Translations under genes and position numbers: made by a program
Part shown: in pieces, positions 27,726 to 61,403 of the stretch
Layout of the letters: every line of letters begins with the position of its first letter
How positions within the stretch are numbered: position 1 is the stretch's first letter
Origin: Mucilaginibacter aurantiaciroseus
Lineage (GTDB): Bacteria; Bacteroidota; Bacteroidia; Sphingobacteriales; Sphingobacteriaceae
Reading direction: 5' to 3'
Length of the DNA: 64,000 nt
NCBI RefSeq assembly: GCF_024055595.1
Contig: NZ_JAMXOF010000003.1
Location: 124,001 to 188,000 of the forward strand
Notes under the pieces: generated by a model
What the model saw: only the letters and a program-made list of their open reading frames with translations
Database searches by the model: none
Told to the model about the DNA's origin: nothing

Positions 27726-27728
27726 GTT

Positions 27729-29309: not shown

Positions 29310-29349
29310 ATCGCTTTTTTTTAGCTGTTTATGTTACTATACGAATGAT

Positions 29350-32361: not shown

Positions 32362-33017
32362 TTAATTAATTGGGTTAATAGTGTAAATTGGTGTTGCTTG
32401 GATTTAAGTGCTTATTTTCTTACCCTGCCCAAACAATATTAGTACAGGTTAAAATGTATTCATTATTGATTATTCCGCATTGAAAATCTCAAAATCGACT
32501 CGCTAAAACGCTCTTATCGTGTAACGTCCCGGCTTCAACAGTGCTTAAGGTTGTTTCCAGCCCTTGGTGCAAACATTAAAAAAATTCAATACAAAAAATA
32601 TAATTGGTTAATTCACCGTAGCGGAGCTATGTATAAATAGATCAACGATGCTGCGAATACACAAAGTAAGGCAGCCGAACTTTTACGAACTATTTATTTA
32701 TAAAAAATTTAACGAAATAGCGCTTTATTTAAATTTATGCTGTTGATAATCAAATAATTAAAATTTAAAAAAGTCCAAAAATTTAACGGATGTAGCAGGT
32801 TTTTGATACACTAAGGGCATTTATTAAGCTTTTACGCTTCAAATAATACGGCAAAAATTGGGTTTTCTGTCTGTCCGGTACCAGCCTGCCAAACAGCCGC
32901 CTTAGAGAATGGACGCTACAGGCATAACGGACATACAACCGAATTGGAAAACAGGCTTAGTGTATCAGGTACAATAAGTGTGAACTTTTTAAAGGCGGGA
33001 TTAACTCATTAAAAAAA
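32362..33017. promoter_or_regulatory. Regulatory gap between susC and the SusR-like gene
   Basis: No gene was seen in 656 bp. It contains the susC promoter region (AT-rich next to 32361) and, farther off, an inverted-repeat structure at 32804-32967. A convincing TAnnTTTG promoter was not located. Confidence 0.5.
32804..32967. repeat. 164-bp element with perfect 12-bp terminal inverted repeats
   Basis: TGATACACTAAG at 32804-32815 and its exact complement CTTAGTGTATCA at 32956-32967. Inside, TGTCTGTCCG and GCCTG are mirrored imperfectly by CAGGC and CGGACATACA, so the arms continue with gaps. The structure fits either a small non-autonomous (MITE-like) insertion or a looped pair of operators between the regulator gene and susC. 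No target-site duplication is obvious. Confidence 0.5.
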
Positions 33018-34616
33018 TTAAGGTTTAGCCCCGATATCGACCGCTTTAATTGCCATGATGCGCTGGTCGAATTCGTCGCCATGAATGATTGCTTTGGCTT
33101 TAATACGCATTTTGTAAACGTAGATAGTTTTTTCGGAGTATTCTAATATCTTAGCAATGGCCTCTGTACCAGTTATACCCATTCGCATCAGCGCAAAAAT
33201 GCGAAGATCTGTAGTGAGCACTTCATGCTCTTTGGGCCAAATCTGGTTTTCTTTCTTAAACAGCGTATTGAATTCTTCAACAAAATTGGGGAAGATTTTG
33301 AGGAAAACCTGGTCGAAAGTGTTGAATAATGTCTCCCGTTCCTTTTTAATATTGATATTATTGCCCATCAATTGGATATCATCATACTTTTTGGCCGGCA
33401 ATTTTGTGTCTATAGATCGTTTAATTCGCTCCAATTGAAGGATATAGCCCGATATTACGTTAAAAAAGTAACCGATGTAATCTTCTTTTATCTTGGTGCC
33501 TTCCATCAATTTTTCGTTAACCTTTTCTATTATCTTTTCTTTTGCTTTTAATTTTTTGTTGCGTTTGTATAAAAGTATAGATACCAGGATTACTGCTGCG
33601 GTCAGTACCGTAATCAGGCTGAGGCTTCTGATGTAAAGCTTCTCCTCCCGTTCTATAAAAAGCAATTTTTCAGAAGCAACTATTGGCAGTAACGACCCGA
33701 TTTGTACTTTTCTTTGCCTGGCGCCATAAAATTCAGCGTCGGCAAGCGCATGCTCCAATGCTGTGTAAGCATTTTTAATGTCTCCTTTTTTGTAGAGAAT
33801 CTCGGCCAGCCAAAACAGCGCAACTGTTTCCTTTGTAGACGACCGGATATCGCTTATGGTTGCTTTTATCAGTAATTCGATACTTTTATCTGACTGTGAC
33901 GTGTTTTGAAAAACGTTGCTAAGCGTAGATTCCACAATAGCGTTCTGATGTTCGGTGAGCGTTTTAAGTTTTAGCAGTTTGTAAAAAAATACTGTGGCAG
34001 CGTCATTAAAGTTGTTTTTATATTTTTTATATCCCGACAGGTAAAGGTTATCATACGAACCCGGCTTACTTAGGAGTATGGCAGAATCGATATACTTATT
34101 TGCGAGTGAAGTATAAACCGGGGTATAGTGCTTATCGTTATTGTAGGTAGCCAAATCATAATAAGCCCTCATTATGATAGAGTAGTATTCAACTTTAACT
34201 GAGTCATTCAGGCTTTGCACATTTATACCGTGAATGCTCTCGAAAGTTTCTTTAAACATTCCGGACGAAAGCAATATAAATCCCATCTTTATTTTGCTGA
34301 AATCCTGTTTAGATTTATCATGAAGGACCTGGCTAACCGATAAAAGTTTGTTGGCATAAACATAAGCAGAATCGTATTGGTAAGATTTGTACTCGTCATA
34401 TAATTTGTTCCCTACCGCGAATTGGTTTTGAAGATCCGATAAGGGCAATTGTTTAAGTTCCTTTTTAAGGGCGGTGATACGCGCTTCTTTTTGATGATCG
34501 TAATCTCTTTTTTTGTCAAAAGCAACTTTCAACTCGTCGAAAAGGTCGTTTGTGTTAGGCACTGCTGCCAGCGCCAACGGTGATAAAATAAACAAAAACA
34601 AAAAAAATACTCTCAT
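33018..34616 (-). CDS. SusR-like membrane-spanning transcriptional regulator (DUF6377-type)
   Basis: 532 aa from the ATG at 34616 (MRVFFLFLFILSPL, signal peptide); an upstream Met at 34658 adds 14 residues. The N-terminal periplasmic part (~20-300) consists of TPR-like helices. One TM segment (~310-332) is followed by a coiled coil (KAKEKIIEKVNEKL) and a C-terminal helix-turn-helix (~450-515, MGITGTEAIAKILEYSEKTIYVYKMRI) of the LuxR-like kind. This is the layout of SusR, which senses maltose in the periplasm and activates sus genes. Position next to susC supports the same job here. Confidence 0.85.
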   Translation of the reverse strand: MRVFFLFLFILSPLALAAVPNTNDLFDELKVAFDKKRDYDHQKEARITALKKELKQLPLSDLQNQFAVGNKLYDEYKSYQYDSAYVYANKLLSVSQVLHDKSKQDFSKIKMGFILLSSGMFKETFESIHGINVQSLNDSVKVEYYSIIMRAYYDLATYNNDKHYTPVYTSLANKYIDSAILLSKPGSYDNLYLSGYKKYKNNFNDAATVFFYKLLKLKTLTEHQNAIVESTLSNVFQNTSQSDKSIELLIKATISDIRSSTKETVALFWLAEILYKKGDIKNAYTALEHALADAEFYGARQRKVQIGSLLPIVASEKLLFIEREEKLYIRSLSLITVLTAAVILVSILLYKRNKKLKAKEKIIEKVNEKLMEGTKIKEDYIGYFFNVISGYILQLERIKRSIDTKLPAKKYDDIQLMGNNINIKKERETLFNTFDQVFLKIFPNFVEEFNTLFKKENQIWPKEHEVLTTDLRIFALMRMGITGTEAIAKILEYSEKTIYVYKMRIKAKAIIHGDEFDQRIMAIKAVDIGAKP

Positions 34617-35497
34617 AATTAGGTAATACCAGCGTAATGGGTAACGATAAATCTGCACGAAGATATGCGGATTTTAAAAAACGAAATAAAGATAACGATA
34701 TGGTGCAGCAATTATGCTGAAAACTTTAAATCAAGATTATTTTTATTGATGTCTGATACGGCGGCCAATTACCAGATGCCTGAATATTTCTCTTTTGGCA
34801 ACTATATTGGCTCGTAAGCAAAGGCTTAATGGGCTGTTCCATGGTAAAGTAAATACGGCAAGGTGCACAGGTAAATTGTACTGCGTAAGCACAGCAGGTT
34901 GCTAACATAGCCCAGTTGTAGCAAACATGACCTATTGGTATCAGCTCTCAAGCTGTTTGTGCCTTGCTGACCTATAGCTGCTGGCTTAACAATAAAACCT
35001 GCGGATGGTTATTAAAAGCGGTGTTTGCGATAGCGGGATTCGGTTGCTTAAAGGCAATAGCTTCGGGCCTGTAGTTATGCTGGTATTTAGTAAACACTCA
35101 AAGGTTAACGGCGATCACCCGGTCTGCGTTCACCATTTCTTTTTGCCTGGCGATTTGTCCCCTTTACGTTTCAGCAGTAGTTTTCTCCAGGATATTGCTT
35201 TCTCTTTTCTCAAACTGCAGGTTACCATTTTTTAATAAAAAGCGCATAGGTGCTGTCCGCACTAAATAGCAACTCCAATTTAAGTTTCAGCTACAGAATG
35301 TTAGCCGGGTTTATCGGCAGCCATTTTCCCGGACAAGATTTATTATGCAGCGGAATTATTTCCTTGGTGCTTTTAGGCATGACCGTTTTATTAATAAAAA
35401 GGAACAATCGCCGCGTAAGCATGTGGATTTAGATTTCAAAATCAATTCTTATTTCAATTTCATAAAGCTGTAAGAAATTTTATTACGTAATTTATAT
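34617..35497. other. Intergenic region without a convincing gene
   Basis: About 880 bp. Short open frames occur, the best being ~60 codons at 35250-35432 with one possible TM segment (GIISLVLLGMTVLLIKR), but none has clear family features. The region may be decayed DNA. A perfect palindrome ATTACGTAAT (35482-35491) lies just before the DUF547 gene. Confidence 0.5.
35482..35491 (+). promoter_or_regulatory. Palindrome before the arsenosugar operon
   Basis: ATTACGTAAT, 6 bp upstream of the DUF547 start. Its position suggests an operator, perhaps for an arsenic-responsive regulator, but no such regulator gene is in the window. Confidence 0.3.
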
Positions 35498-43511: not shown

Positions 43512-44738
43512 TTAATGCAAAGACAATAACCTCTTTCTCACAAGCAAACAAGCCCCTATGATACCAGCATGTTTGCCTAATTGTGATAGTCTGAGTTGAG
43601 TATCATTATTAACCAAGCTTAAAGAGTATTTATTAATGGCACTTTTAATGGGAAGGCGTATATACTCGCCGGTTTGGGCCAAACTTCCACCCAATATAAC
43701 TAACTCAGGATTAAATATATTAATGAGTAATGCGATACCGCGACCAATATTTCCGCCAATTTCAGCTATTAGTTCTATGGCCAAAACATCATCATTATTG
43801 GCAGCCTTTATCACATCTTCCATTTGTATCTCTTCTCCCTCGCCTTTTTCTTCAAAAAGGATTGATGAAGAGCCTTCTTGCATCTTTTGTTTAACCATTC
43901 GAGCGAGCGCCCAACCAGATGCTTCAGTTTCGAGGCAGCCTTTTTTGCCGCAGTGGCATAGTATTTCGTTATCAAATAGTGGAATATGGCCAAATTCGCC
44001 CGAATATCCCGATTTGCCATAATACAATTGCCCGTTTATTAGTATTCCCAACCCTATTCCGTAATCTATATTAAGAAATAGTACATCTTTTTCTCCTTTT
44101 ACTATGCCTGAACTAAATTCGCCAAATGCCATAGCGCGCGAATCGTTTTCTAAAAACACCTTTATACCAACCTTCGATTCAATGATCTTGCTTAATGGCT
44201 CTTCGCTAAAATTAAAAAAGCTGTAGCTGTAACCAGTAGCGTAATTAACCCGCCCCGAAATATTGATACCTATACCCAGAATTTTATCCTTGGGAATAGG
44301 GAGTTCCTTTATAAAGGTATTTATCAATTGGCACAATGTTTCCAACGATTCTTTATTGTTCTCCAGCTTATAAGATATCTTTTCGGCAACTTTAACCAGA
44401 TTTTTTTGCAGATCAGACAGTGCTACATTGATATATCTTTGGTTTATATCAACCCCGATAAAAAACGCGGACTCTGGCAGCAACCCAAATAAGTTTGGTT
44501 TACGCCCGCTTTTTGACTCTACCTTACCGTAATCCTGTACTATACCATCCTGTATAAGATCGTTCAAAACTGCAGTCATCTTCGGCACGCTTATGTTTAA
44601 CTCTTTAGCCAGATCAGCTATCGTAGCATCGCTCACATTAGCAAAGTAACCTAATATGCTTTTTTTAAGGTTCAGATTTTTATATGCTACACCAGTAGCG
44701 CTTTCGTTATTTAACTCTTCAAAAAATGTTTTACCCAT
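43512..44738 (-). CDS. ROK-family transcriptional repressor
   Basis: 408 aa. An N-terminal winged helix (~25-80, ATIADLAKELNISVPKMTAVLNDL) is joined to a ROK sugar-binding domain (~88-405). The domain has the phosphate-binding DINQRYINVALSDL, the zinc-binding C-H-C-x4-C in EILCHCGKKGCLE, and GGNIGRGIALLINIFNPELVILGG. NagC/Mlc-type repressors of this kind respond to a sugar or sugar phosphate. It is divergent from the second PUL (341-bp gap), which it probably represses; a palindrome lies 31 bp before its start. Confidence 0.92.
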   Translation of the reverse strand: MGKTFFEELNNESATGVAYKNLNLKKSILGYFANVSDATIADLAKELNISVPKMTAVLNDLIQDGIVQDYGKVESKSGRKPNLFGLLPESAFFIGVDINQRYINVALSDLQKNLVKVAEKISYKLENNKESLETLCQLINTFIKELPIPKDKILGIGINISGRVNYATGYSYSFFNFSEEPLSKIIESKVGIKVFLENDSRAMAFGEFSSGIVKGEKDVLFLNIDYGIGLGILINGQLYYGKSGYSGEFGHIPLFDNEILCHCGKKGCLETEASGWALARMVKQKMQEGSSSILFEEKGEGEEIQMEDVIKAANNDDVLAIELIAEIGGNIGRGIALLINIFNPELVILGGSLAQTGEYIRLPIKSAINKYSLSLVNNDTQLRLSQLGKHAGIIGACLLVRKRLLSLH

Positions 44739-45079: not shown

Positions 45080-46219
45080 ATGAGGAAAATTTTACTATCA
45101 ACCATTATGTTATGTTTTATCATAGCAAGTTCATGCAAAAAAAACGAGGGTGCCAACCCTTATGACCCTAACACAAAAATTACAGTATCGGTTGTGCCGA
45201 AAGTTATATCGTTTGCGCCGTTAACTGGCAAAACCGGCGATATTGTAGAAATCAGCGGATCGAATTTTACAGGCGCCACTGCTGTTACTTTTGGCAACAA
45301 GCCCGCAGCCTCTTTTAAAGTGAATTCAGACACTAGCATAACTGCCGTTATTGGCGAGGGCTCAACAGGCACTGTAAGCGTAACAAATACAAAAGGCACT
45401 AAGGCACTAATTGGCTTTACATACATTCCACCTGTAGTTGTGGTTGAGAATCCGAATCTGGCACTGAATAAACCCGCAACAGCTTCGACAAGCTTTAATG
45501 ATCCCGGATTGTCAGTAGACGGCAATCTTGGAACACGCTGGTCTATTGCCGCAGCAACAGAACACGAGTGGTACAAGGTTGATTTGCTAACAGTAAAAAA
45601 AATTAACAGAATTGATATAAAATGGGAAGGTGCCTACGCCACTGATTATGCCCTACAGGTATCAATTGATAACGTAAATTTCACTACGGTGTATGCAACC
45701 TCAACGTTTACAGGTGGTGACGGAAGCAACAGTTTTCCTGCGGTAAATGCCCGCTATGTTAAAATATTACTAAACAAAAGCGCATTGCCTTACCCAATGT
45801 CGTTCTGGGAGTTTGAAGTATATGCAGATGCGCCGCCGATTAATTTGGCTTTAAACAAAACAGCGACGGCATCAACAAGCTTTAATGCCGAAAGCCTTTC
45901 TATTGACGGAAATTTAGGAACCCGATGGTCGTTAGCGGCAGCTACTGAAAATGAGTGGTATAAAGTTGATCTTGGTAAAGTTGAAAACATTGGCCGTGTA
46001 GATATTAAATGGGAGGGTGCCTACGCCACCAATTATGCATTACAGGTTTCAACTGATAATGTAAAATTCACCACTGTTTTTGCAACGTCAACCTTTACTG
46101 GTGGTGACGGAAGTAACAGTTTTCCTGCGGTAGATGCGCGGTATGTAAAAATATTGCTGATTAAAGGTGCGTTGCCTTATCCAATGTCATTCTGGGAGTT
46201 TGAAGTGTATAAAAAATAG
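45080..46219 (+). CDS. Lipoprotein with IPT/TIG domain and two F5/8-type-C domains
   Basis: 379 aa; lipobox IASSC with Cys19. An IPT/TIG Ig-like domain (~35-115, APLTGKTGDIVEISGSNF) is followed by two discoidin-like carbohydrate-binding modules (~122-250 and ~252-379) that are near copies of each other (both with DGNLGTRWS, IKWEGAYAT, YPMSFWEFEVY). No catalytic domain. It probably binds glycans at the cell surface, as SusE/F-type proteins do in starch loci. It is the first gene of the second PUL and is followed by a terminator-like hairpin, so it may be transcribed partly on its own. Confidence 0.88.
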   Translation: MRKILLSTIMLCFIIASSCKKNEGANPYDPNTKITVSVVPKVISFAPLTGKTGDIVEISGSNFTGATAVTFGNKPAASFKVNSDTSITAVIGEGSTGTVSVTNTKGTKALIGFTYIPPVVVVENPNLALNKPATASTSFNDPGLSVDGNLGTRWSIAAATEHEWYKVDLLTVKKINRIDIKWEGAYATDYALQVSIDNVNFTTVYATSTFTGGDGSNSFPAVNARYVKILLNKSALPYPMSFWEFEVYADAPPINLALNKTATASTSFNAESLSIDGNLGTRWSLAAATENEWYKVDLGKVENIGRVDIKWEGAYATNYALQVSTDNVKFTTVFATSTFTGGDGSNSFPAVDARYVKILLIKGALPYPMSFWEFEVYKK

Positions 46220-46286: not shown

Positions 46287-47903
46287 ATGAAAAAAAGCAT
46301 CTTTACAATAATAATAGTTAGCTTGATAGGCATCGTTAATGCCTGTAAAAAAGAGCAGCATCCGGGTAAAGTCCCTATAACAGACAGCACAGTTATAAAG
46401 CCGGAAGAGTCTGTTGCCTCAAATATATATGATTCGGTAATAAATAATCAGGTGCGATATATACTTGCCGCCCAAATGCCAAGCGGTGCTTTAAAGGATA
46501 ATCAAGAATCTAACAGCAGGATATGCGGATATTTTGCCAACATATCCTGCCGTGCTTTGCTCAAAAAACCTACCGCTGATAATGTTGCTGCGGTAAAAAA
46601 GTATATGGCATGGTACATGAGCAAACTTAACGGTAGCGTAAACCCCATAACTGGTAAGCCCGAAGTACCGGGCTCGGTATATGATTACTTCGCCCCCGCA
46701 GAAAGTACAAAAGGGACGTATGATTCGGTAGATTCATACGCTGCTACATTTTTATCATTAGCTAAAGAACTGGCCGCTTTATCGCCAGCTGATAAAGCCT
46801 GGGTAGCAGGGTATTCTGTGCAACTTACCTTAATTGGCTCGGCGATGGAAAAATGCATTGATAATTCGGATAATAGTATACCCATTGGATTTACCCCCGA
46901 TGATAATGACGGTCTGTCGATTGATTCGTATGTTCATGGTGCTAAGTATGCTATGGATAATTCTGAAGTTAACGAAGGGCTAAAATCCATGATTTGGCTA
47001 CAAGTTCAAGTATTAGGTGGTTCAAAAACCGCACATTTTCAAAACTTGTTAGATGTTAATACCAGTGCTATTGAAAGCCAGTTATGGCGTGGAAACAGGT
47101 ATAACTGGAATGATGATGGCAGCACCGGTGCAAGTATTTCCAAATGGTCTAATTTTTATGCTGACGCTACCTGCCAGCTATATCCGGGGCTATTTGGTGT
47201 TATTGATCCCTTGTCCCCACGCGCAAACCTGCTGTACAGCACATTTAATGTGAATTACCCGGCTTGGTCTAACGGCACAATATACTCTGGTGCATACCCG
47301 TGGGCTGTAATATGTTATGCCGCTGCTGTGCTTAACGATAAAGCAAGGGTTGACGAATATATAAAACATATCCTGGCACTAAATAAAGCTGGTAAGCAGA
47401 AAGATAACTGGTATAATGCTGAGGCCGCGTTTGTAATACTGGCCGCAGATAAGATAAAGAACCAGGGCAATAATGCAATTTTTATCCCTACACCAGTTGC
47501 CACAGATCCACCTATTGACGATAAAGGCAATCTTGCTTTAAATAAAACAGCCACTGCATCAAGTAGCTTTAATGCCGAGAGCTTGTCTGTTGATGGTAAT
47601 CTAGGAACACGTTGGTCTACTAAATTAGCTACTGATAACGAGTGGTTTAAAGTTGACCTTGGTGCGATAAAAAATATAAGCCGGGTAGATATAAAATGGG
47701 AGGGTGCATACGCAAGCGATTATGCGTTACAAGTGTCAACCGATGACGTCAAATTTATTACTGTGTTTGCAACCAGTACAAGTAAAGGCGGAGATGTAAG
47801 CAACTCTTTTGCTTCGGTAAATGCGCGGTATGTAAAAATACTACTTAACAAAGGCGCATTGCCATACCCAATGTCATTTTGGGAGTTTGAGGTGTATAAA
47901 TAA
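46287..47903 (+). CDS. Lipoprotein: uncharacterised helical (toroid-like) domain plus F5/8-type-C domain
   Basis: 538 aa from the ATG at 46287 (GTG one codon earlier). Lipobox IVNAC (Cys20). The large central domain (~50-395) is rich in helices with conserved acidic/aromatic blocks: TYDSVDSYAATFL, TPDDNDGLSIDSYVHGAK and NWYNAEAAFVILA. This is suggestive of an (alpha/alpha)6 toroid such as glycoside hydrolases or lyases use, but no known family could be named. The C-terminal discoidin module (~405-538) is nearly the same as those of the upstream gene. It shares its domain plan with the next gene, its paralogue. Possibly a novel surface glycosidase or lyase. Confidence 0.82.
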   Translation: MKKSIFTIIIVSLIGIVNACKKEQHPGKVPITDSTVIKPEESVASNIYDSVINNQVRYILAAQMPSGALKDNQESNSRICGYFANISCRALLKKPTADNVAAVKKYMAWYMSKLNGSVNPITGKPEVPGSVYDYFAPAESTKGTYDSVDSYAATFLSLAKELAALSPADKAWVAGYSVQLTLIGSAMEKCIDNSDNSIPIGFTPDDNDGLSIDSYVHGAKYAMDNSEVNEGLKSMIWLQVQVLGGSKTAHFQNLLDVNTSAIESQLWRGNRYNWNDDGSTGASISKWSNFYADATCQLYPGLFGVIDPLSPRANLLYSTFNVNYPAWSNGTIYSGAYPWAVICYAAAVLNDKARVDEYIKHILALNKAGKQKDNWYNAEAAFVILAADKIKNQGNNAIFIPTPVATDPPIDDKGNLALNKTATASSSFNAESLSVDGNLGTRWSTKLATDNEWFKVDLGAIKNISRVDIKWEGAYASDYALQVSTDDVKFITVFATSTSKGGDVSNSFASVNARYVKILLNKGALPYPMSFWEFEVYK

Positions 47904-47998
47904 ATGTAATGCCGTATCGCATAGTTATCATAAAAAGTAATTCAACTATATTATAATTAATTCACGCAATATATAAAACCTTATAATACACACAAATT

Positions 47999-49570
47999 AT
48001 GAACCCATTATTAAAAAAAACACTCACACTTGGCTTCGCCTCAAGTATGCTTCTATCCTGTCAAAAAGGGCAATTGCCGTCGGGCAAAGCGGACGTAGCA
48101 AACCAACCTGGCATCAATACTAAAACTGTTCGTTTAAATGCAACTGCGGTTAATTATTCAACTATTATTACCAAACAAATCAACTTCATCCTTGCAGGCC
48201 AGTTGCCATCAGGGGCTATGATGAATACATCGGTACCCGGCAGCAGAATATGCGGTTATTTTGGAAATATTGCCTGCCTCGGCGTACTCGAAGCTCCCAC
48301 TGCCACTAATCAAACAGCCGTAAAAAATTGGATGATTTGGTATATGGGCAAGCTAAATGGCACTACAAATCCTGTAACAGGAAAATCCGAAGTAGCCGGT
48401 TCGATATACGACTATGCTGGCTCGGCCGAAACAACTAATGGCACTTATGATTCGGTAGATTCTTACGCGTCAACATTTTTAATGTTAGCAAAGCGTTATG
48501 GTGAATTGTCTGCAGCTAACAGAACATGGCTTGCGGGCTATTCGTATCAATTAACGCTTATTGGTAATGCGTTAATGGGGTGTATGGATAATTCTAGCAA
48601 TAGCATTCCTACACTTTATACTCCTGACGATAACGATTGGCTTACTATTGACTCGTATGTGCATGGAGCCAAGAACTTGATGGACAATGCCGAAACGAAC
48701 CAAGGGTTAAAAGCAATGGTTTGGTTACAAAGCAACGTAATTACTAATGGTAACCCTGCTTATTATTCAAGCGTTTTAACATCCAATACTAGTGGTATCG
48801 AAAGTCAGTTATGGCGCACAACCATGTACAATTGGAACGATAACGGTACCACAGGTGCAACTATGTCAAATTGGGCTACCTGGTATCCCGACGCTGTATC
48901 CCAGCTGTATCCCGCTATGTTTGATGTGATAGCACCAACATCTGCCAGGGCAGCTAGTTTATACGGTACGTTTAATACCAAATACGCCACTTGGTCAACC
49001 GGGTTTGTGAATGATCCATCCGGCTTTCCTTGGGCTGCAGTAAGCTATGCCTCGGCTAAAATGAGTGATTTTAGCCGCACAAATTCGTATTTAACATATC
49101 TGGATAGTTTTGCGGGCACTACACAGCCAAATAACTGGTACAATCTCGAAGCAGGGTTTGCCATACTCGCGGCAAAAATTGCAAGCACAGCACCGGTTAA
49201 TTTAGCCCTAAGCAAAACAGCAACGGCTTCATCAAATACAACTAGTGCAGGCAACTCAAACGATGGGGATTTAGGGACAAGGTGGTCAAGCGCAGTTGCC
49301 GATAACGAATGGTGGAAAGTTGATCTGGGTTCGAACAAAACGGTTAGTAAGGTAATTATTAGGTGGGAAGGGGCTTATGATACTAACTACTCCATACAAA
49401 CTTCTGTAGATGATGTAACTTATACTAATGCTTACAACACAACAATTGGCGATGGAGGTGATGATGTGATAACATTTAACGCAACTACTGCACGCTATGT
49501 AAAAATATTATGTACCACGCGCGTACAACCTTTGTGGGGATCGTCCTTTTGGGAAGTCGAGGCTTATTAA
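47999..49570 (+). CDS. Paralogous toroid-like/F5/8-type-C lipoprotein
   Basis: 523 aa; lipobox MLLSC (Cys21). Same layout as the upstream gene. The helical domain (~45-390) has the blocks TYDSVDSYASTFL, TPDDNDWLTIDSYVHGAK and NWYNLEAGFAILA conserved. The C-terminal discoidin domain (~395-523) is more diverged (RWSSAVADNEWWKV, SSFWEVEAY). Conservation of Asp/Tyr/His blocks between paralogues points to a shared active or binding site. Catalytic status is unknown. It lies 145 bp upstream of susC. Confidence 0.82.
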   Translation: MNPLLKKTLTLGFASSMLLSCQKGQLPSGKADVANQPGINTKTVRLNATAVNYSTIITKQINFILAGQLPSGAMMNTSVPGSRICGYFGNIACLGVLEAPTATNQTAVKNWMIWYMGKLNGTTNPVTGKSEVAGSIYDYAGSAETTNGTYDSVDSYASTFLMLAKRYGELSAANRTWLAGYSYQLTLIGNALMGCMDNSSNSIPTLYTPDDNDWLTIDSYVHGAKNLMDNAETNQGLKAMVWLQSNVITNGNPAYYSSVLTSNTSGIESQLWRTTMYNWNDNGTTGATMSNWATWYPDAVSQLYPAMFDVIAPTSARAASLYGTFNTKYATWSTGFVNDPSGFPWAAVSYASAKMSDFSRTNSYLTYLDSFAGTTQPNNWYNLEAGFAILAAKIASTAPVNLALSKTATASSNTTSAGNSNDGDLGTRWSSAVADNEWWKVDLGSNKTVSKVIIRWEGAYDTNYSIQTSVDDVTYTNAYNTTIGDGGDDVITFNATTARYVKILCTTRVQPLWGSSFWEVEAY

Positions 49571-49714: not shown

Positions 49715-52700
49715 ATGAAAGAAATTTTTACTAATAAAAAAAAACTATTGAGCTTTATAGCAGTACTACTTATGATGGTGTGCGGCCAGCAAGCAATGGC
49801 TCAAGCTCAGAATGTAACAGGCCAGGTAATTGATATGAGCGGATTGCCGCTACCGGGTGTAACCGTATCTATAAAAGGGACAACGAAAGCTATTGCCACC
49901 GATGCAAACGGCAAGTTTCAGATACAAGTAGCGCCCGGCGAAAACACCCTCTCGGTAATGATGATGGGCTTTACAAGTAAAACTTTAATCGTTAAAGGCG
50001 GGCAGGATGTAAAAATAGCTTTGGAGGTTACTATGTCTGACCTGAAAGAGGTTGTTGTTGTAGGTTACGGTTCTATAACAAAAAAGGAAATTACCGGTGC
50101 TGTATCAGTAATAAAAGGCAGCCAGGTAAATAATATGCCGGTGAGTAGTGTAGCAGACATATTGCAGGGTAAGGCAGCGGGCGTAACTGTTTCGCAAAGC
50201 AGCGGTAGCCCAGGTTCCGCATCGGTAGTGCGTATAAGGGGCATTGGCTCAATAAACGGCAGTACCGACCCATTGTACATAGTTGATGGTTTACCGCAAA
50301 CAGACATCAACTATTTAAATCCTAATGATATTGAAAGTATTGCTATACATAAAGATGCATCAGTAGCTGCCATTTATGGTTCAAGGGCTTCTAATGGCGT
50401 AATTATTGTAACCACCCGGTCGGGCGCAAAAAACGAGAAAGTGGTTATTTCTTATGATGGTTATTATGGCTTCCAGTCGCCCTGGAAGCGGCCACAAATG
50501 CTAAACGCACAGCAATTTATCTCTTACAAAAATTTGGCGGCAACTAACGCAGGGGCGGTTAAGCAATTCGACTTTTCTACACAGACCAATATAGATTCGG
50601 TATTGCGTTTTGTTGGCGCAAATACCGGGCCTAACGGCACCGACTGGTGGAACGAGATAACCCGTTACAATGCTCCGGTGCAAAGCCATAATATCAGTGT
50701 AAGCGGGGGCGGAAAAGACGTTAGTTTCTTATCAAGCCTTGCATACCTCAATCAAAAAGGCATTATAGCTGGCTCGGACTATGAGCGGGTATCTTGGCGG
50801 AACAATGTAAATGCACAAGTTAGTAAACGCGTTAAGTTAAGTACCAATTTAGGTTTGATATACGAAGGCCGCCGTACTGTTGATGAAAACAACCCATTTA
50901 CCGGTACCATTTTCAGCGCTATGACGGCCGACCCAATAACACCTGTATATCGCAATAATCTACAGGGATTGCCTTCGTTCTTAAACATAATTAACTCAGG
51001 TTACGAGCCTACTAATCCATTCTCGCAGTATTCGGGCCTGTTGTACTCAAATAAGCGCAACCCTGTTGCGCAGATAGAAAGGCTGCGCCAAAGTAATTTC
51101 GAGAATTTAAGTATAAAGGGTGGTATCACTGCCGATATACAAATATTAAAAACGCTTAGTTTTCAAAGCCGTGGCGGGATGGATTTGCAGCGCGCCTTAT
51201 CAAAAGGCTTTTCGCCGCAGTATTACTTAAACGCGTTTGATAATGCTAACACCAATACAGTTAGTAATTACTCATACACTACTAATTATTTTGTGACAGA
51301 AAACACCCTGAACTACGATCAAACCTGGGGTAAATACCATTTAACAACCTTAGGAGGTGTATCTGCCGAAGCAACAAATGTATCGCAGTTTGGCGCATCC
51401 ATACAAGGGTTTGTAAATAATGATGTTGATATGCGGGTTATAAGTGCGGGTACCATTAACCCACAGGTTTCGGGTTACCCATACGGAAATTCAATTGCAT
51501 CATATTTTGGCAGAATTGGGTTTGATTACAATGGTAAATACATTGTTGCAGGTAATATACGCCGCGATGGGTCATCGCGCTTTGCCGATGGCTATCGCTG
51601 GGGTACTTTCCCTTCTGCATCGGCAGCATGGCGTTTTACCGAAGAAAATTATTTTAAAGATAAACAAAGCAACTGGTTAAGTGATGGTAAATTAAGGGTA
51701 AGCTATGGTTTAATAGGCAACCAAAACATTGGTGGTGGTGCTTATTTATCTACTTATGGTAGCAGCATTTATGATCGGTATGAGTTTGGAAACGAAAACA
51801 CACCTTTCATAGGGGCCGGCCGCCAATCCACGGGTAACACGGTTTTGAAATGGGAAACTTCCAAACAATTAGATATCGGTTTGGACCTATCGTTTTTTAA
51901 TGGTAGACTAAACTTGGCAGCCGATTATTTTGATAAGAAAATTGACAATATGCTACTAATAGTGCCCTTGCCAACTACATTGGGCTATCCAACTTCGCCG
52001 TACTCAAACGCTGGAAATATGCAAAATAAAGGCTGGGAATTTGAGTTGGCCTATAACAACAATATTGGTGCATTTAAGTATAGCGTAAACGGTAATATAT
52101 CCGCATATCGAAATAAGGTTACAAAATTGGGTAATGGCGAACCGATATTTGCTACCGCGCACTTAGGCGAGGTATTTACCAAAACAGAAGTAGGCATGCC
52201 GGTGGGTTATTACTACGGTTATAAAACTAATGGCATATTCCAAAATGCAAAGCAAGTAGAGGACGGCCCCCAACGGGAAACCGCGTCGCCCGGAGATATC
52301 CGCTTTAAAGACATGAACGGCGATGACGTAATTGATGCTAAAGACCGTACGATGATAGGTAACCCATGGCCTGATTTTGTATACGGTTTAACCATGAACG
52401 CGTCGTACAAAGGTTTCGACCTGAGCGTATTTTTCCAGGGTTCGCAGGGAAATGACGTAATGAACATACAGCGTTACGATACCGAATCGGGCACAGGCTA
52501 TTACAATGCTACCAAAGGCTTTCTCGAAAAATCATGGAGCGGCGAAGGCAGTACAGATAAGTATCATAAAATATCGCAAAAACAAGGGCTTAACAACAGC
52601 GTTTCTGACTATTTTGTTGAAGACGGCTCTTACCTGCGTGTAAAAAATGTGCAATTGGGCTACAATTTTGCCAATACTTTTTTACAGAAGCTAAAGATGA

Positions 52701-52864
52701 AACAGTTTAGAGTTTATGTAGGTGCGCAAAACCTGTTTACAGTTACTGGTTATTCGGGGCTCGATCCTGAGATAGGCTCGGCAGATCCTAAACTTACCGG
52801 GATAGATCAGGGATATTATCCACAAGCAAGAACATTCATGATAGGCATCAACGCAAAATTCTAA
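49715..52864 (+). CDS. SusC-like TonB-dependent outer-membrane transporter (second PUL)
   Basis: 1049 aa. Signal peptide (cleavage near AMAQ, ~30), carboxypeptidase-regulatory-like domain (~33-110, VTGQVIDMSGLPLPGV), TonB-dependent plug (VVVVGYGSITKKEITGAV, DPLYIVDGLPQ) and beta-barrel ending in INAKF. It imports the oligosaccharide released by the linked lipoproteins. susD follows after 10 bp. Confidence 0.96.
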   Translation: MKEIFTNKKKLLSFIAVLLMMVCGQQAMAQAQNVTGQVIDMSGLPLPGVTVSIKGTTKAIATDANGKFQIQVAPGENTLSVMMMGFTSKTLIVKGGQDVKIALEVTMSDLKEVVVVGYGSITKKEITGAVSVIKGSQVNNMPVSSVADILQGKAAGVTVSQSSGSPGSASVVRIRGIGSINGSTDPLYIVDGLPQTDINYLNPNDIESIAIHKDASVAAIYGSRASNGVIIVTTRSGAKNEKVVISYDGYYGFQSPWKRPQMLNAQQFISYKNLAATNAGAVKQFDFSTQTNIDSVLRFVGANTGPNGTDWWNEITRYNAPVQSHNISVSGGGKDVSFLSSLAYLNQKGIIAGSDYERVSWRNNVNAQVSKRVKLSTNLGLIYEGRRTVDENNPFTGTIFSAMTADPITPVYRNNLQGLPSFLNIINSGYEPTNPFSQYSGLLYSNKRNPVAQIERLRQSNFENLSIKGGITADIQILKTLSFQSRGGMDLQRALSKGFSPQYYLNAFDNANTNTVSNYSYTTNYFVTENTLNYDQTWGKYHLTTLGGVSAEATNVSQFGASIQGFVNNDVDMRVISAGTINPQVSGYPYGNSIASYFGRIGFDYNGKYIVAGNIRRDGSSRFADGYRWGTFPSASAAWRFTEENYFKDKQSNWLSDGKLRVSYGLIGNQNIGGGAYLSTYGSSIYDRYEFGNENTPFIGAGRQSTGNTVLKWETSKQLDIGLDLSFFNGRLNLAADYFDKKIDNMLLIVPLPTTLGYPTSPYSNAGNMQNKGWEFELAYNNNIGAFKYSVNGNISAYRNKVTKLGNGEPIFATAHLGEVFTKTEVGMPVGYYYGYKTNGIFQNAKQVEDGPQRETASPGDIRFKDMNGDDVIDAKDRTMIGNPWPDFVYGLTMNASYKGFDLSVFFQGSQGNDVMNIQRYDTESGTGYYNATKGFLEKSWSGEGSTDKYHKISQKQGLNNSVSDYFVEDGSYLRVKNVQLGYNFANTFLQKLKMKQFRVYVGAQNLFTVTGYSGLDPEIGSADPKLTGIDQGYYPQARTFMIGINAKF

Positions 52865-52874: not shown

Positions 52875-54473
52875 ATGAAAAAAATATTATATATCACCCT
52901 TTGCATTACCCTGCTGGCAGCCGGCTCATGTAAAAAAGATTTCTTAAACCGCCCTCCGCTAGGCGTTCAAACAGAAGAGAACTTTTATAAATCGCGAGAT
53001 GCTGGTTTAAGAACTTTAGTAAAATGCTATCAGGTATTTAATGATGCATATGGGTATGAAGCGCCCCGTGCAGAACTTGGCAACATGGCTACAGACGATA
53101 GTGAAAAAGGTGGAGGAGACGCCGGTGACCGACCCTTTGTAACCGATTTGGGTTATGGCAGGGCATTGTCAAGCAATCCGTCGCTACAGTCCGATTGGGC
53201 AACACATTACCAGGGCATAGGTAACTGTAACGTAGCTTTAGAAAATTTACCTGTGAATGAATTGATAGATGCTGCCGGAGCAAAAGTAACCGCCAATACA
53301 AAGGCCCGCTACCTGGCCGAAATTAGATTTATACGGGCATACTTGTATTTTGAACTTGTAAAAACATTTGGTGGTGTCCCTCTTTTGGACAAAACACTAA
53401 CCGTTAACAATGCCAATAAATTAAAACGTGCAACAGCAAAAGAGATATTTGAATTTATTGCAAAGGAGCTTGACGCTGTTGCGGCAGAAACCAGCTTGCC
53501 CGGAAAGAACGGGATGGATTATGACAAAGAAGCCGGGCGTGTTAATAAAGAAGCCGTGTGGGCTATGCAGGCGCGAGTTTACCTATATTTTGCAAAGAAT
53601 GATAACGGCCTGTTTGCCAAAGCAAGGGATGCAGCCAAAAAAGTTATTGATGCCAATGTCTATTCGTTAGACAAGCAATTTCAGGATCTGTATTTAGTAA
53701 ATAGTTATAAAACACAAGAGCCTATATTCTCGATCATAAAGGGCGATAATGCGGCTTCGAACATTTATGGCGCGTTTACCCCTCTTTATACTTCTCCGCG
53801 TGGGCCAACAGGTGCTTACGGATTCGACACCCCAACACAAGATCTGGTAAGTGAGTTTGAACCCGGTGACCCGCGTTTGTTATTCACTATTATTGAACCT
53901 GGGGATGCTTTTCCAAAAGCATCGGGGCAGGAAGTATTAAATTTCTCGTCGTATCCAAATACTGGTTTTCATAACCGTAAATCTTATCTGACTCCGTTAA
54001 GGCGCGGCCCTGGCTTTGGCGATGATGCCTGGACTTTTCACCTGATACGCTACGCTGATGTATTGCTAATGTATGCTGAGGCCGTATTAGAAAGTGGCGG
54101 TGATAAGCAAACTGTTGCTAATTACATTAACATGATAAGGCAAAGGGCCAGTAACTCAACCCGTACCGATGCTGAAGCTGTTAGTCGGGTTCGCACCATT
54201 GCTAACACGCCTTTACCTGATGTTACAGTAGGTGCTGACCTAAGAGTGGCAGTAAGGCACGAGCGCCGTATTGAGTTTGCAATGGAATACCAACGCTTGT
54301 TTGACCTTCAAAGATGGAACAACTATATCGAAACAATGAATAATTATGCAGGCAAACCCGGTTCAAATGGCAAAGGTGCTGCATTCAAAAAAGGCATTAA
54401 CGAGTTGTTCCCTATCCCGCAAGCAGAAATCGACCGTTCGGGCGGATCAATAGTACAAAACCCAGGATATTAA
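52875..54473 (+). CDS. SusD-like glycan-binding lipoprotein (second PUL)
   Basis: 532 aa; lipobox AAGSC near residue 20. RagB/SusD features: DFLNRPPLGVQTEENFYKS at the N-terminus, RFIRAYLYFELVKTFGGVP in the TPR region and the C-terminal RHERRIEFAMEYQRLFDLQRW with a final NPGY. It is the lid partner of the preceding SusC. Ligand unknown. Confidence 0.95.
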   Translation: MKKILYITLCITLLAAGSCKKDFLNRPPLGVQTEENFYKSRDAGLRTLVKCYQVFNDAYGYEAPRAELGNMATDDSEKGGGDAGDRPFVTDLGYGRALSSNPSLQSDWATHYQGIGNCNVALENLPVNELIDAAGAKVTANTKARYLAEIRFIRAYLYFELVKTFGGVPLLDKTLTVNNANKLKRATAKEIFEFIAKELDAVAAETSLPGKNGMDYDKEAGRVNKEAVWAMQARVYLYFAKNDNGLFAKARDAAKKVIDANVYSLDKQFQDLYLVNSYKTQEPIFSIIKGDNAASNIYGAFTPLYTSPRGPTGAYGFDTPTQDLVSEFEPGDPRLLFTIIEPGDAFPKASGQEVLNFSSYPNTGFHNRKSYLTPLRRGPGFGDDAWTFHLIRYADVLLMYAEAVLESGGDKQTVANYINMIRQRASNSTRTDAEAVSRVRTIANTPLPDVTVGADLRVAVRHERRIEFAMEYQRLFDLQRWNNYIETMNNYAGKPGSNGKGAAFKKGINELFPIPQAEIDRSGGSIVQNPGY

Positions 54474-54536: not shown

Positions 54537-55958
54537 ATGAATGCATACAAATTGGCAATACGGGTTATTATATTTCTCGTAGTTATTAGCACATTTGCCT
54601 TTGCAACACCGCCGGGTACTGCCAAACCCGAGATTAGCCTTACACTCATTCCTCCATCGCCGGTAACCGACCAGGTAACCCTTGATGTACGGGCTGGGAT
54701 ATGGAATAATACCACTGCCAAAAAAACCATATATGTTTTATTTTACCTGGATAAAGTGGCAAAGGGAAACCTGTTGCACCAACAAACCTTAATCCTTGCA
54801 GCAAAATCAAACGGCTGCGTAAAGTTTCCGTGGTCGACTCGAAATATGGCTGGTAAGCATAAAATAATATTGGTTACCAAATCGGGCAAAAAAGTTTTAT
54901 GTAAGGAACGCCCTATGCAGGTACTGGCATCAAACATCCGCTCAACCCGACGGGTTGACGGGGCATGGCTGGGCTTTTATCATTGGAGCGAAGCGGAAGG
55001 TAAATTTTGGAATCCTGAGCTAAAAAAAGCAACCGATGAACAATGGGGCGAAATGATGACCGCACAACACGCGCTCGAAATGAATATAATTGTTATTCAG
55101 GATGTTGTCCGTAATCCAACTGAATATGCAGGAAAGCATAACATTGAGAAGGATGGCTACAAAGGCGTTCCTTATTACCCCTCAAACCTATTTCCAGGGC
55201 ATGTACCGATAGCGGCCGTTGATCCGTTGGAAGCAGTGCTGGCAGCCGCGGATAAGAATGGCATGAATGTTTTTATAGGTGTGGGTTCGTATGCCTGGTT
55301 CGATTTTACTAATGGTTCGTTAGAATGGCATAAAAAAGTTGCCGATGAGCTGTGGGAAAAATATGGTCACCATGATTCATTTTACGGCTGGTATGTTAGC
55401 GAAGAACAGGATGGAGGACTTGGCGACGCGCAGGCAAGAAAAGATATTGTGCATTTTTTTAAAGAATTTAAGGCGTATGTTAATAAAATAGCCCCTGATA
55501 AACCGGTTATGCTCGCTACAAATTCGCATAATGTAGGCAGCGCTATCGATACTTATCGTAAACTGCTCCCTAATTTGGATATTTTGTGCCCGTTTGGATT
55601 TCACCGCATGCCCAGTACCGATTTTACTGGTGAACAATCTGCCAATAAGTTACAGGAATTGTGCAACGAAGCGGGCTCCCACCTTTGGATGGATATGGAA
55701 GTATTTGATTTTGCCGATGGCAATGCATTAGTACCGCGCCCGATCAATGGATTACTGAGTGATCTGCACCGATTCCCAAATTTTGAAAAAATAATTTGCT
55801 ACCAATTTACCGGCTTGTTAAATAGCCCAACGAGTTCGATCAAACCGGGAGGCCCTAATACGGTAAAACTATACCTTGATTATAAACAATATCTCGACTC
55901 CATTACTACCCCTTTACAGAACTTAAAAGGCGGTACCAACATACCTATCCATAAATAG
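54537..55958 (+). CDS. Secreted DUF4434-type TIM-barrel protein, putative glycosidase
   Basis: 473 aa with a signal peptide (~1-23, TFAFA). An N-terminal Ig-like domain (~28-135) precedes a DUF4434-like barrel (~140-460). The barrel begins VDGAWLGFYHW, has IVIQDVVRNPTEYAG, and carries acidic candidates in FYGWYVSEEQDGG and LWMDMEVFDF at strand ends where glycosidases place catalytic Glu/Asp. DUF4434 proteins are suspected glycoside hydrolases with no assigned substrate. It is 63 bp after susD and 25 bp before the epimerase, so it is part of the operon. Confidence 0.78.
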   Translation: MNAYKLAIRVIIFLVVISTFAFATPPGTAKPEISLTLIPPSPVTDQVTLDVRAGIWNNTTAKKTIYVLFYLDKVAKGNLLHQQTLILAAKSNGCVKFPWSTRNMAGKHKIILVTKSGKKVLCKERPMQVLASNIRSTRRVDGAWLGFYHWSEAEGKFWNPELKKATDEQWGEMMTAQHALEMNIIVIQDVVRNPTEYAGKHNIEKDGYKGVPYYPSNLFPGHVPIAAVDPLEAVLAAADKNGMNVFIGVGSYAWFDFTNGSLEWHKKVADELWEKYGHHDSFYGWYVSEEQDGGLGDAQARKDIVHFFKEFKAYVNKIAPDKPVMLATNSHNVGSAIDTYRKLLPNLDILCPFGFHRMPSTDFTGEQSANKLQELCNEAGSHLWMDMEVFDFADGNALVPRPINGLLSDLHRFPNFEKIICYQFTGLLNSPTSSIKPGGPNTVKLYLDYKQYLDSITTPLQNLKGGTNIPIHK

Positions 55959-55983: not shown

Positions 55984-57171
55984 ATGAACATATTTGAATA
56001 CCAAGAGATATATCGCGCCAACTTATTAGACAGCGTGGTGCCTTTTTGGGTTAATAACTCAGAGGATAAAGAATACGGCGGCTTTTTTACCTGCCTTGAC
56101 GAAAAAGGGGAAGTTTACGACACCGATAAATTTATGTGGCTGCAATGCCGCCAGATATGGACACTTTCCATGCTTTATAACCAAGTAGAAAAGAAACAGG
56201 AATGGCTGGATATGGCTATACGTGGGGCCGAGTTTGTTAAAAATAACGGACGCGATGCCGAAGGCAACTGGTATTTTTCACTAACCCGCGAAGGGAAACC
56301 GATTACGCAGCCCTACAATATCTTTTCGGATTGTTTTGCGGCCATGGGTTTTGCCCAGCTTTATACAGCTACCAAAAACGAAGAATATAAAGCGATTGCC
56401 CTAAACACATTTTACAATATCCTTAAAAAGCGCAACGATAGTAAGGGCATCTATAACAAGCAAGTCCCTGGTACACGTCCGCTTCAAAGTTTTTCATTAC
56501 CTATGATACTGTGCAATTTGGTATTGGAGCTGGAACATATACTTAAACCAGAACTTGTTGAGGAAACCATACAACTGGGTATTCACTCGGTAATGGATGT
56601 TTTTTACAAGCCCGAATTTGGTTTGATATTGGAGAATGTTGCTCCGGATGGTAGTTTTGTAGATTCGTTTGAAGGCCGTTTGGTAAATCCGGGCCATGCA
56701 ATTGAATCCATGTGGTTTATTATGGATTTGGCTTCGCGCGCGGGCGATAAGCAATTGATAAAGAAGGCTGTTGATATAACCATTGACACGATTGAGTACG
56801 GCTGGGACAGACAGCATGGCGGTATATTTTACTTCCTCGATGTAAAAGGGAATCCGCCACAGCAGCTTGAATGGGACCAGAAATTATGGTGGGTACATAT
56901 TGAAGCCGTCATCAGCCTTTTAAAAGGGTATTATTTTACCGGCGACGAAAGATGCTGGCAATGGTTTGAAAAAATACATGCCTATATCTGGAAACATTTT
57001 GTTGATGACAGGAATGGCGAATGGTTTGGCTACCTTAACAGGCGTGGCGAAGTGCTGCTGCCTGCAAAAGGTGGGAAATGGAAAGGTTGCTTCCACATCC
57101 CCAGAGGGTTATATCAAGGCTGGAAGGTACTGCAGGCAATAGAAGAAAAACGTAGTGTTTTGCACCGATAG
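55984..57171 (+). CDS. AGE-family sugar 2-epimerase (N-acylglucosamine 2-epimerase-like)
   Basis: 395 aa, cytoplasmic (no signal), (alpha/alpha)6 barrel. AGE-family motifs are present: WLQCRQIWTLSMLYN near residue 50, LVNPGHAIESMWF and KLWWVHIEAV, with the catalytic His pair in these last two, and FHIPRGLYQ near the end. Members interconvert GlcNAc/ManNAc, or glucose/mannose units in disaccharides. The length favours a monosaccharide or N-acyl sugar epimerase, but the substrate cannot be fixed from sequence alone. It starts 25 bp after the DUF4434 gene and is 9 bp from the MFS gene. Confidence 0.88.
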   Translation: MNIFEYQEIYRANLLDSVVPFWVNNSEDKEYGGFFTCLDEKGEVYDTDKFMWLQCRQIWTLSMLYNQVEKKQEWLDMAIRGAEFVKNNGRDAEGNWYFSLTREGKPITQPYNIFSDCFAAMGFAQLYTATKNEEYKAIALNTFYNILKKRNDSKGIYNKQVPGTRPLQSFSLPMILCNLVLELEHILKPELVEETIQLGIHSVMDVFYKPEFGLILENVAPDGSFVDSFEGRLVNPGHAIESMWFIMDLASRAGDKQLIKKAVDITIDTIEYGWDRQHGGIFYFLDVKGNPPQQLEWDQKLWWVHIEAVISLLKGYYFTGDERCWQWFEKIHAYIWKHFVDDRNGEWFGYLNRRGEVLLPAKGGKWKGCFHIPRGLYQGWKVLQAIEEKRSVLHR

Positions 57172-57180
57172 AAAAATAAC

Positions 57181-58437
57181 ATGGCTATATTACAAGTACA
57201 AACAACAGTTATCGAGGAAAGTGTTAACCAGCAAAAACAGAATTATATACCGGCGCTTGTTGCATTAGGTGTACTCTATTTTATGATGGGGCTAATCACC
57301 TGCTTAAATGATACCCTAGTGCCTTTTTTTAAGAGTGGTTTTACCCTTAGTTACGCCCAATCATCATTGGTGCAATTCTACTTTTTCTTAACTTATGGTA
57401 TTATGTCTATCCCGGCAGGTAAGGTGGTTGAAAAAGTAGGATATAAAAAAGGCATGGTGCTGGGTTTCTCCATTGCAGCTGTCGGCGCTATTTTATTTTT
57501 CCCTGCCTCAATTTTGCATATATATGCCTTGTTTTTGGCTGCTTTGTTTATAGTGGCAATAGGTATTGTTATATTACAGGTGGCGGCCAACCCCTATGTT
57601 ACCGTCTTAGGGCCCGCCAAAACCGCGTCTTCGAGGTTAACTATGGTACAGGGGGTCGGCTCAATAGGCACCACCGTAGCTCCAATATTAGGTTCGTATT
57701 TTATCCTCTCGCAATTAAGTAATTCACATGGTTCAAGCGAGGCTGTACGTTACCCATACCTGGGTATTGCCGTTATGCTAATACTTATTGCGTTCACGGT
57801 TTCGCGATTAAAATTGCCGATTATAAAAACACTCGGCAGCCAGCAGATAGCCCAACATGATGATCAAACTAAAAGTGTATTCTCATTTCGTAACCTAAAT
57901 TTCGGAGCAATAGCAATATTTTTATATGTTGGTGCGGAGGTATCAATCGGTACTTTCCTAACCAACTACGTATCAGATATATTGAAGATAGGTATAAAAG
58001 ATTCCAATACTTATGTGGCTTTTTACTGGGGCAGCATGGTAGTGGGCCGTTTGCTGGGTGCATTGCTTTTAAAAATAATTAAACCCTCTTACGTATTATC
58101 AATATGTGCAGCAATCTCAATTTTTTTAATTGTCTTTTCTGTAACAAATACAGGGCAACTTGCTATTTGGAGTATGATTTCAATAGGCTTTTTTAACTCG
58201 GTAATGTTTGCAATCATATTCTCACTATCAGTAAATGGTTTGGGTAAATATACCACGAAGGCATCAGGTATCCTATCTACAGCAATTGTAGGTGGGGCTA
58301 TTATTTCCTTTACACAAGGCCTATTAATTGATCATTTTACTTGGCCAATAGCTTTTATGCTCCCTTTGTTATGTTATCTGTATATCCTGTTTTATGGGTT
58401 AAACGGTTATCGCTCTAAATACAACTCTGCAACCTGA
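57181..58437 (+). CDS. Sugar MFS permease (FucP/GluP type)
   Basis: 418-aa inner-membrane carrier with 12 TM segments. Typical FHS/FucP-family features are FMMGLITCLNDTLVPFFK in TM1, the GKVVEKVGYKKGMVLG loop and VAANPYVTVLGP in TM4. It probably imports the monosaccharide that the epimerase then converts. Last gene of the second PUL. Confidence 0.92.
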   Translation: MAILQVQTTVIEESVNQQKQNYIPALVALGVLYFMMGLITCLNDTLVPFFKSGFTLSYAQSSLVQFYFFLTYGIMSIPAGKVVEKVGYKKGMVLGFSIAAVGAILFFPASILHIYALFLAALFIVAIGIVILQVAANPYVTVLGPAKTASSRLTMVQGVGSIGTTVAPILGSYFILSQLSNSHGSSEAVRYPYLGIAVMLILIAFTVSRLKLPIIKTLGSQQIAQHDDQTKSVFSFRNLNFGAIAIFLYVGAEVSIGTFLTNYVSDILKIGIKDSNTYVAFYWGSMVVGRLLGALLLKIIKPSYVLSICAAISIFLIVFSVTNTGQLAIWSMISIGFFNSVMFAIIFSLSVNGLGKYTTKASGILSTAIVGGAIISFTQGLLIDHFTWPIAFMLPLLCYLYILFYGLNGYRSKYNSAT

Positions 58438-61289: not shown

Positions 61290-61403
61290 AACTTATTTAA
61301 ATAATTGTATAACATATCCGGCCAATACTCCGGTAAATTTGTACTATACCAAACTCTGCCTATTAAGTTGGCGGCGCTAACAACTAATATTAAAAAAACT
61401 TTT

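Follow-up and report, generated by a model that had tools for sequence, protein, structure and literature searches.

What do two neighbouring lipoproteins do when no domain model recognises the larger part of either? The question is raised by a 64,000-nucleotide stretch of Mucilaginibacter aurantiaciroseus (contig NZ_JAMXOF010000003.1, positions 124,001 to 188,000; hereafter the window), in which two adjacent genes, p1 and p2, encode such proteins within a locus for glycan uptake. Our reading, to which we give roughly even odds (about 0.5), is that both are surface glycoside hydrolases from an (alpha/alpha)6-type family that so far has no name, cutting a bacterial exopolysaccharide (EPS) of amino sugars that probably contains N-acetylmannosamine (ManNAc).

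Two tandem lipoproteins with an unnamed domain

Both proteins join a new domain to a C-terminal discoidin module, as laid out below. Residues of p1 are counted from the ATG at 46287; an in-frame GTG lies three bases upstream, at 46284.

46287..47903, + strand: p1, lipoprotein with new domain and discoidin module (open reading frame (ORF), Pfam and pairwise comparison)
46416..47447, + strand: predicted (alpha/alpha)6-type domain of p1, with invariant D146, D149, D224, E227, Y291 and E379
47523..47900, + strand: discoidin (CBM32-type) module of p1; nearest solved structure 2rv9, E 2.3e-25
47999..49570, + strand: p2, lipoprotein with new domain and discoidin module; not beside p1 in 3/3 relatives
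48131..49174, + strand: new domain of p2, the one modelled; invariant residues include D151, D154, D229, N230, E232, Y296, W332, P344, W345 and E384 (p2 numbering)
49199..49567, + strand: discoidin module of p2; 2rv9, E 2.7e-25

Over their full length p1 and p2 are 50% identical (526 columns, E 1e-180), and their domains of about 340 residues are 54.5% identical over 343 columns. A lipobox-like Cys can be seen by eye in each (...VNAC in p1, ...LLSC in p2), and neither domain was matched by any Pfam or NCBIfam model at E up to 1. The preliminary description of this DNA had rightly seen tandem paralogous lipoproteins sharing an uncharacterised domain; its "marked divergence elsewhere", outside four kept blocks, was overstated, since the whole domain is about 55% identical. 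It made no mention of the C-terminal modules, which score 73.3 and 68.2 bits against the F5/8 type C model (PF00754, cut-off 28.2) and so both belong to CBM32, nor of two more discoidin modules in the lipoprotein at 45080-46219.

A recent tandem duplication of p1 was rejected as the origin of p2, because p1 and its three orthologues form a clade that excludes p2 (support 84/92, which is moderate, the long phage and Cupriavidus branches meeting in this tree). Judged by this branching, p2 is an old duplicate or an import and not a fresh copy. The FYP-like block of the family reads WYPDA in p2 and the phage copy and FYADA in p1 and its orthologues. All fourteen residues that are invariant across the family (see below) are present in both proteins, and therefore both are probably active. 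An earlier suggestion that the paralogues act on different linkages of one glycan finds no footing here: the fourteen residues are the same in each, and nothing in the data bears on linkage.

A predicted toroid and its candidate active site

AlphaFold2, run on six sequences, gave an all-helical model of the p2 domain (pLDDT 67.5, pTM 0.76). The closest solved fold is the GH15-type dextran dextrinase (9ju0; Z 22.5, rmsd 3.6, 302 residues), and the model also aligns with the methylmannose polysaccharide hydrolase MmpH (7qsj; Z 21.7, rmsd 3.5, 280 residues) and with KfIG (5z3a; rmsd 3.7, 282 residues). Foldseek matched it to 7c25 (E 5.1e-4). The match to 5z3a, at Z 20.4 on a model of middling confidence, places the domain with the (alpha/alpha)6 catalytic domains of GH15, and Z values of 20-22, reached with MmpH and glucosidases of GH15 type across 280-302 residues, support the toroid expected by the preliminary description. 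Its sequence does not belong to GH15, as Glyco_hydro_15 (PF00723) matched neither p1 nor p2 at E up to 1, nor any of nine members at E up to 10. We saw no homology to any family without enzymatic function, save one weak match of a single EPS-locus member to the complement TED domain, itself a common helical toroid.

Across eleven aligned relatives, fourteen residues are invariant: G28, Y43, F44, D107, D110, W133, D185, N186, E188, Y252, W288, P300, W301 and E340 (domain numbering; add 44 for p2). These include five carboxylates in 11/11 relatives, and the signature shared by all eleven can be written as D..D, DN.E, an FYP-like block, PW and a Glu in the last helix. The four blocks first pointed out in this pair do occur in both proteins, but they fail as a family signature: TYDSVDSYA is exact in 3/11 rows, and TPDDND, IDSYVHGAK and NWYN in only two (p1 and p2). 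Shorter pieces reach further (DSYA 7/11, DN 11/11), and only the DSxDSYA core of the four blocks extends past the close copies. The His of YVHGAK is kept only in the five copies from polysaccharide utilisation loci (PULs).

Loops that lead into even helices form the cleft side of such barrels. Ten of the fourteen invariant residues lie in odd-to-even loops or first turns, four in helix cores and none on the other face, where one appears at the widest cut-offs. As far as position along the chain shows, the invariant residues tend towards one side of the barrel rather than scattering over its surface, with modest statistical support.

The likely roles of these residues can be approached through two known systems. 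In GH15, whose member KfIG (5z3a) is an isomaltose glucohydrolase and whose enzymes act on alpha-glucosides, the acid lies in the a5-a6 loop and the base in the a11-a12 loop (PMC12446779, in excerpt). Judged by helix order, the invariant candidates nearest those places are DN.E, which is inside a model helix, and E340. The domain is like KfIG and dextran dextrinase in its modelled fold, and its carboxylate blocks may lie near the same two regions; unlike them, it has no sequence or profile match to GH15, and its motifs differ. Mutating a D..D pair of MmpH removed most of its activity, and mutating a late Glu removed all of it (PMC9883506, in excerpt), for which reason D107/D110 are still possible acids by analogy. 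Fold, D..D pair and late Glu are all shared with MmpH, but D107/D110 of the model precede the fourth helix, whereas D47 of MmpH sits in the first inter-helix loop (same excerpt).

Relatives in probable eaters, apparent makers and a phage

The closest relatives lie in three loci from metagenome-assembled genomes, assigned to Pedobacter (L010), Prolixibacteraceae (L011) and Bacteroidales (L012). They come from one pattern-based scan of a genome collection, in which 3/172 candidate stretches encoded a relative. Gene order follows the window as far as the contigs reach, and the p1 orthologues are 79.7%, 68.9% and 68.6% identical to the p1 domain, respectively. In all three a discoidin lipoprotein similar to that at 45080-46219 stands upstream of p1 and a SusC-like gene directly follows it, so p2 is absent at that place. 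Further downstream L012 encodes SusD, DUF4434, an N-acyl-D-glucosamine 2-epimerase (AGE) 78% identical to that of the window, a GlmS-like SIS protein, a ROK kinase, a GH2 enzyme and a major facilitator superfamily (MFS) transporter. The best PDB match of this GH2 is exo-beta-D-glucosaminidase CsxA (2vzo, E 2e-61); it is assigned, with the SIS isomerase and the ROK kinase, to L012/L024. An AGE is thus present in both loci whose contigs reach far enough (the window and L012). The window genome has a GH2 of its own on contig 4 (L045), 37% identical to that of L012, which was not assigned to the p1/p2 locus; by eye it adjoins a GH26-like protein and SusC/D, and may belong to a mannan locus.

The domain is rare in this phylum. 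Three of 395 sampled Bacteroidota genomes matched at E up to 0.001, with only the window's own match credible, and with a broader profile and a limit of E 1e-5 the count was 1/395. The other two were left out of the counts as chance matches: L004 (E 4.1e-4) overlaps a DNA-polymerase-like ORF on the opposite strand, and L005 (E 7.5e-4) falls at the end of an Ig-like repeat ORF with one stop inside. In the family sample, 3/301 genomes matched, namely the window, the genome carrying the L010 contig and a short remnant, and in the order of L011 the figure was 1/344. The remnant, in a genome of the same genus (G520; L015:1325-1606), is a 38-residue match to the N-terminus of the domain in a short frame, apparently a decayed copy, and was not counted as intact.

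More distant relatives lead to loci of another kind. A plasmid of Cupriavidus sp. P-10 encodes a 393-residue relative (26% identity over 66% of the query), and two further proteins of the plasmid, L018 and L019, match weakly (E 1.2e-8 and 1.8e-7). With L018 as query, an Escherichia fergusonii plasmid protein was found at 33% identity (E 7e-27), whose gene has relatives in 3/5,426 complete E. coli genomes. In pairwise BLASTP, p2 reaches L018 at E 1e-8 and L018 reaches the E. fergusonii protein at E 1e-42. Profiles of seven closer members (A6) and three far members (A5) aligned in hhalign with a probability of 98.1 (E 1.2e-13, 283 columns) and with motifs in register, while a control of A6 against AGE, another helical toroid, gave 0.2 (E 0.33).

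The far members sit in what appear to be EPS loci. In E. fergusonii (L039) and in E. coli AH19B041, A41 and NCTC8623 (L042, L047, L048), the same run is found: a polymer-forming cytoskeletal protein (annotated "hypothetical protein" in A41), wecB, a YaiO outer-membrane protein, a hypothetical protein, an acyltransferase, the p1/p2 relative and a glycosyltransferase. GT2-type domains were found in the glycosyltransferases of L039 and L042, and by eye the E. fergusonii one has a Q..RW-like motif, which is typical of processive synthases. Two Cupriavidus loci (L040, L041) combine a UDP-GlcNAc 2-epimerase (PF02350, E 3e-121 and 7e-119) with a GT2. Beside the L040 GT2, a protein falls just under the polysaccharide-deacetylase cut-off (22.6 vs 23.1 bits); its L041 counterpart has no domain match. 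Neighbours of L018 include YaiO and a bactofilin-like protein below cut-off (20 vs 27.9 bits). In total, WecB, which makes UDP-ManNAc, is encoded in 6/6 EPS-type loci inspected, all with a GT2 glycosyltransferase; the six represent about three lineages (three similar E. coli, one E. fergusonii and two paralogous Cupriavidus loci).

This arrangement of bactofilin-like protein, wecB, YaiO, acyltransferase and GT2 is little known; it lies on a plasmid in E. fergusonii, and a related form occurs twice on the Cupriavidus plasmid. Downstream of it in E. coli A41, the annotation records a frameshifted gene for a polysaccharide deacetylase. The open-access library searched gave no title on a YaiO/wecB/bactofilin EPS locus of this kind, nothing on the domain family, nothing on DUF4434 by itself, and nothing joining poly-N-acetylmannosamine, exopolysaccharide and hydrolase.

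A third setting is viral. On a 92.5-kb viral contig (L023), the second half of a 632-residue protein (5083-6981) is the new domain, at 28% identity. Roughly 300 N-terminal residues of unassigned fold precede it, with the look of a TIM barrel by eye only; in a model of the whole protein this half has a pLDDT of about 30. Pfam, PHROGs and PDB sequence searches gave no match for the protein, no other protein of the viral collection is related to its N-terminal half, and nothing resembling the whole protein occurs in annotated phage records. For the domain itself, PHROGs, the phage record collection and BFVD yielded no credible relative, and query A1 found no match among the viral contigs. A degenerate motif pattern returned six viral stretches, of which only L036, the same phage gene, is real; the other five have frames of only 10-18 residues between stops. 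Lying 3.3 kb downstream on the contig, 10315-12810 matches a terminase large subunit with an internal, intein-like LAGLIDADG homing-endonuclease match.

The surrounding utilisation locus

The genes that flank p1 and p2 in the window are as follows.

43512..44738, - strand: ROK/NagC-like regulator, divergent from the locus (PF00480, E 8.7e-60)
45080..46219, + strand: lipoprotein with a TIG-like region and two discoidin modules (PF00754, two stretches)
49715..52864, + strand: SusC-type TonB-dependent importer (TIGR04056, 897 bits, cut-off 368)
52875..54473, + strand: SusD-type lipoprotein (PF07980, E 3.9e-42)
54537..55958, + strand: DUF4434 protein, possible TIM-barrel hydrolase (PF14488, E 1.9e-37)
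55984..57171, + strand: AGE (NF052547, 694.2 bits, equivalog cut-off 600)
57181..58437, + strand: MFS sugar transporter of the GluP/FucP/NagP group (TIGR01272, 280 bits, cut-off 203)

This locus is a PUL, since SusC and SusD lie next to each other and are accompanied by genes that act on glycans. The lipoprotein at 45080..46219 is likely a surface glycan-binding protein. The regulator falls below the NagC equivalog cut-off (191 vs 650 bits), as the transporter does for the NagP model (195 vs 625), and by eye proteins resembling the regulator lie near the locus in L010 and L011. AGE interconverts ManNAc and N-acetylglucosamine (GlcNAc), and NagA is encoded elsewhere in the genome. The DUF4434 protein, whose fold is presumably a TIM barrel, has a weak PDB match to a "putative alpha-L-fucosidase" (4h41, E 4.8e-6). 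Like other Bacteroidota PULs, this one has a SusC/SusD pair, surface lipoproteins, a transporter and a regulator; unlike the usual ones, its main enzyme family is unnamed and it includes an amino-sugar epimerase.

Elsewhere in the window, 19289-34658 holds a starch-type utilisation locus (amylase/pullulanase proteins, cyclomaltodextrinase, SusC/D/E, MFS and a DUF6377 protein), and 61305-63440 encodes a protein with Big_5, InlB-type repeats and an ice-binding domain.

Proposed function and its alternatives

The family is shared by apparent makers of a WecB-dependent polymer, AGE-carrying eaters and a phage, and for this reason hydrolysis of that polymer is the reading we favour. Anchored at the surface and held to the polymer by their discoidin modules, p1 and p2 would cut an EPS of amino sugars, most likely rich in ManNAc and perhaps partly deacetylated. 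The pieces would be imported by SusC/SusD, sugars would be released further in for the MFS transporter to take through the inner membrane, and AGE would convert ManNAc to GlcNAc, which would feed the GlcNAc pathway. We infer an endo rather than an exo action, by inverting acid/base hydrolysis in the central cleft: the acid would be E232 of p2 in the DN.E motif (D229 being the alternative) and the base E384 at the start of the last helix, and D151/D154 would bind the -1 sugar or share the acid role.

There is a known counterpart in role. PssZ of Listeria, a GH126 (alpha/alpha)6 enzyme, is specific for a ManNAc/Gal EPS (PMC13363691, in excerpt); PssZ cleaves a beta-1,4-ManNAc polymer that Listeria itself produces, and bacteria that produce deacetylated hexosamine EPS have genes for hydrolases acting on it (PMC6307706, in excerpt). 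The p1/p2 domain resembles PssZ in its modelled fold type and in its probable tie to ManNAc-containing EPS, but the proposed acid of PssZ, Glu51, lies early in the chain. We take the likeness to be one of role rather than of family membership, as no sequence relation came to light: a six-row profile against PDB sequences gave no GH126 entry at E up to 10, and none was among the 50 structural matches listed.

Several points weigh against our reading. No family member has a known activity, and p1/p2 share only 14-21% identity with the EPS-locus relatives. WecB could be supplying UDP-ManNAc for a different sugar in the polymer, genes for a GH2, a kinase or a deaminase are absent from the locus in the window, and one Cupriavidus copy (L009) lies by eye outside any carbohydrate locus. 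The model is of middling confidence: 85/348 residues have a pLDDT below 50, among them the stretch 153-178 immediately ahead of DN.E, a motif that the model puts in a helix and not in a loop. The clustering of invariant residues has P 0.024 against 265 ungapped columns and ranges from 0.015 to 0.74 over nine cut-offs, which is why its support is modest. In hhalign, six GH15 proteins (from 31 searched genomes) gave probabilities of only 0.4 and 0.3.

The serious rival, unlikely as we judge it, keeps the same fold and hydrolase role but takes the substrate to be a glucosamine polymer, such as chitosan or partly deacetylated chitin or poly-N-acetylglucosamine (PNAG), with AGE in a side role. Its weight comes from the discoidin modules and the GH2. 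The closest solved structures to the modules of p1 and p2 are those of glucanase/chitosanase (2rv9, 4zxe; E ~2e-25), and 2rv9 we take to be one of the two parts, DD1 or DD2, of the module of Paenibacillus sp. IK-5 chitosanase. That two-part module binds chitin, chitosan and cellulose (PMC12154041, in excerpt). The p1/p2 modules are like these except that they are joined to a different main domain. Together with the CsxA-like GH2 of L012 they point equally to glucosamine and to mannosamine, and the GluP/NagP-type transporter also suits the rival. Yet release of glucosamine or GlcNAc needs no AGE, which both the window and L012 have in the locus, and WecB stands beside the EPS-locus relatives in 6/6 cases.

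It is improbable that the domains are non-catalytic glycan-binding proteins with a degenerate toroid as binding cleft. Their place between a discoidin lipoprotein and SusC, their own discoidin modules and surface-type lipoprotein character, and another candidate hydrolase (DUF4434) in the locus would all fit such a role, but five carboxylates invariant across PUL, phage, Cupriavidus and EPS-locus copies are more than binding should preserve, and the protein at 45080-46219 already suits it. Slightly less probable again are lyases, epimerases or transglycosidases, all of which the (alpha/alpha)6 toroid houses beside hydrolases, and which the structural neighbours (AGE-type epimerases and a retaining dextran dextrinase) recall, since we noticed no enzyme for uronic acid synthesis in the loci that were examined, hydrolases make up most of the strongest structural matches, and the profile comparison with AGE was negative.

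What the family may mean

Returning to hydrolysis of an amino-sugar EPS, a more specific proposal can be put forward only tentatively. The domain may define a new glycoside hydrolase family for an undescribed, ManNAc-based and partly deacetylated EPS of the WecB-GT2-YaiO-bactofilin loci of E. coli, E. fergusonii and Cupriavidus, which its makers would trim, a Bacteroidota PUL would eat and a phage depolymerase would attack. If so, an unlabelled family would gain a substrate class, and the "hypothetical proteins" of EPS loci would become testable hydrolases. The family would also supply a possible enzyme against a slime polymer that is so far unstudied and that some E. coli isolates apparently make. 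Since makers, eaters and phage would share one domain, the identity of the polymer would be directly testable.

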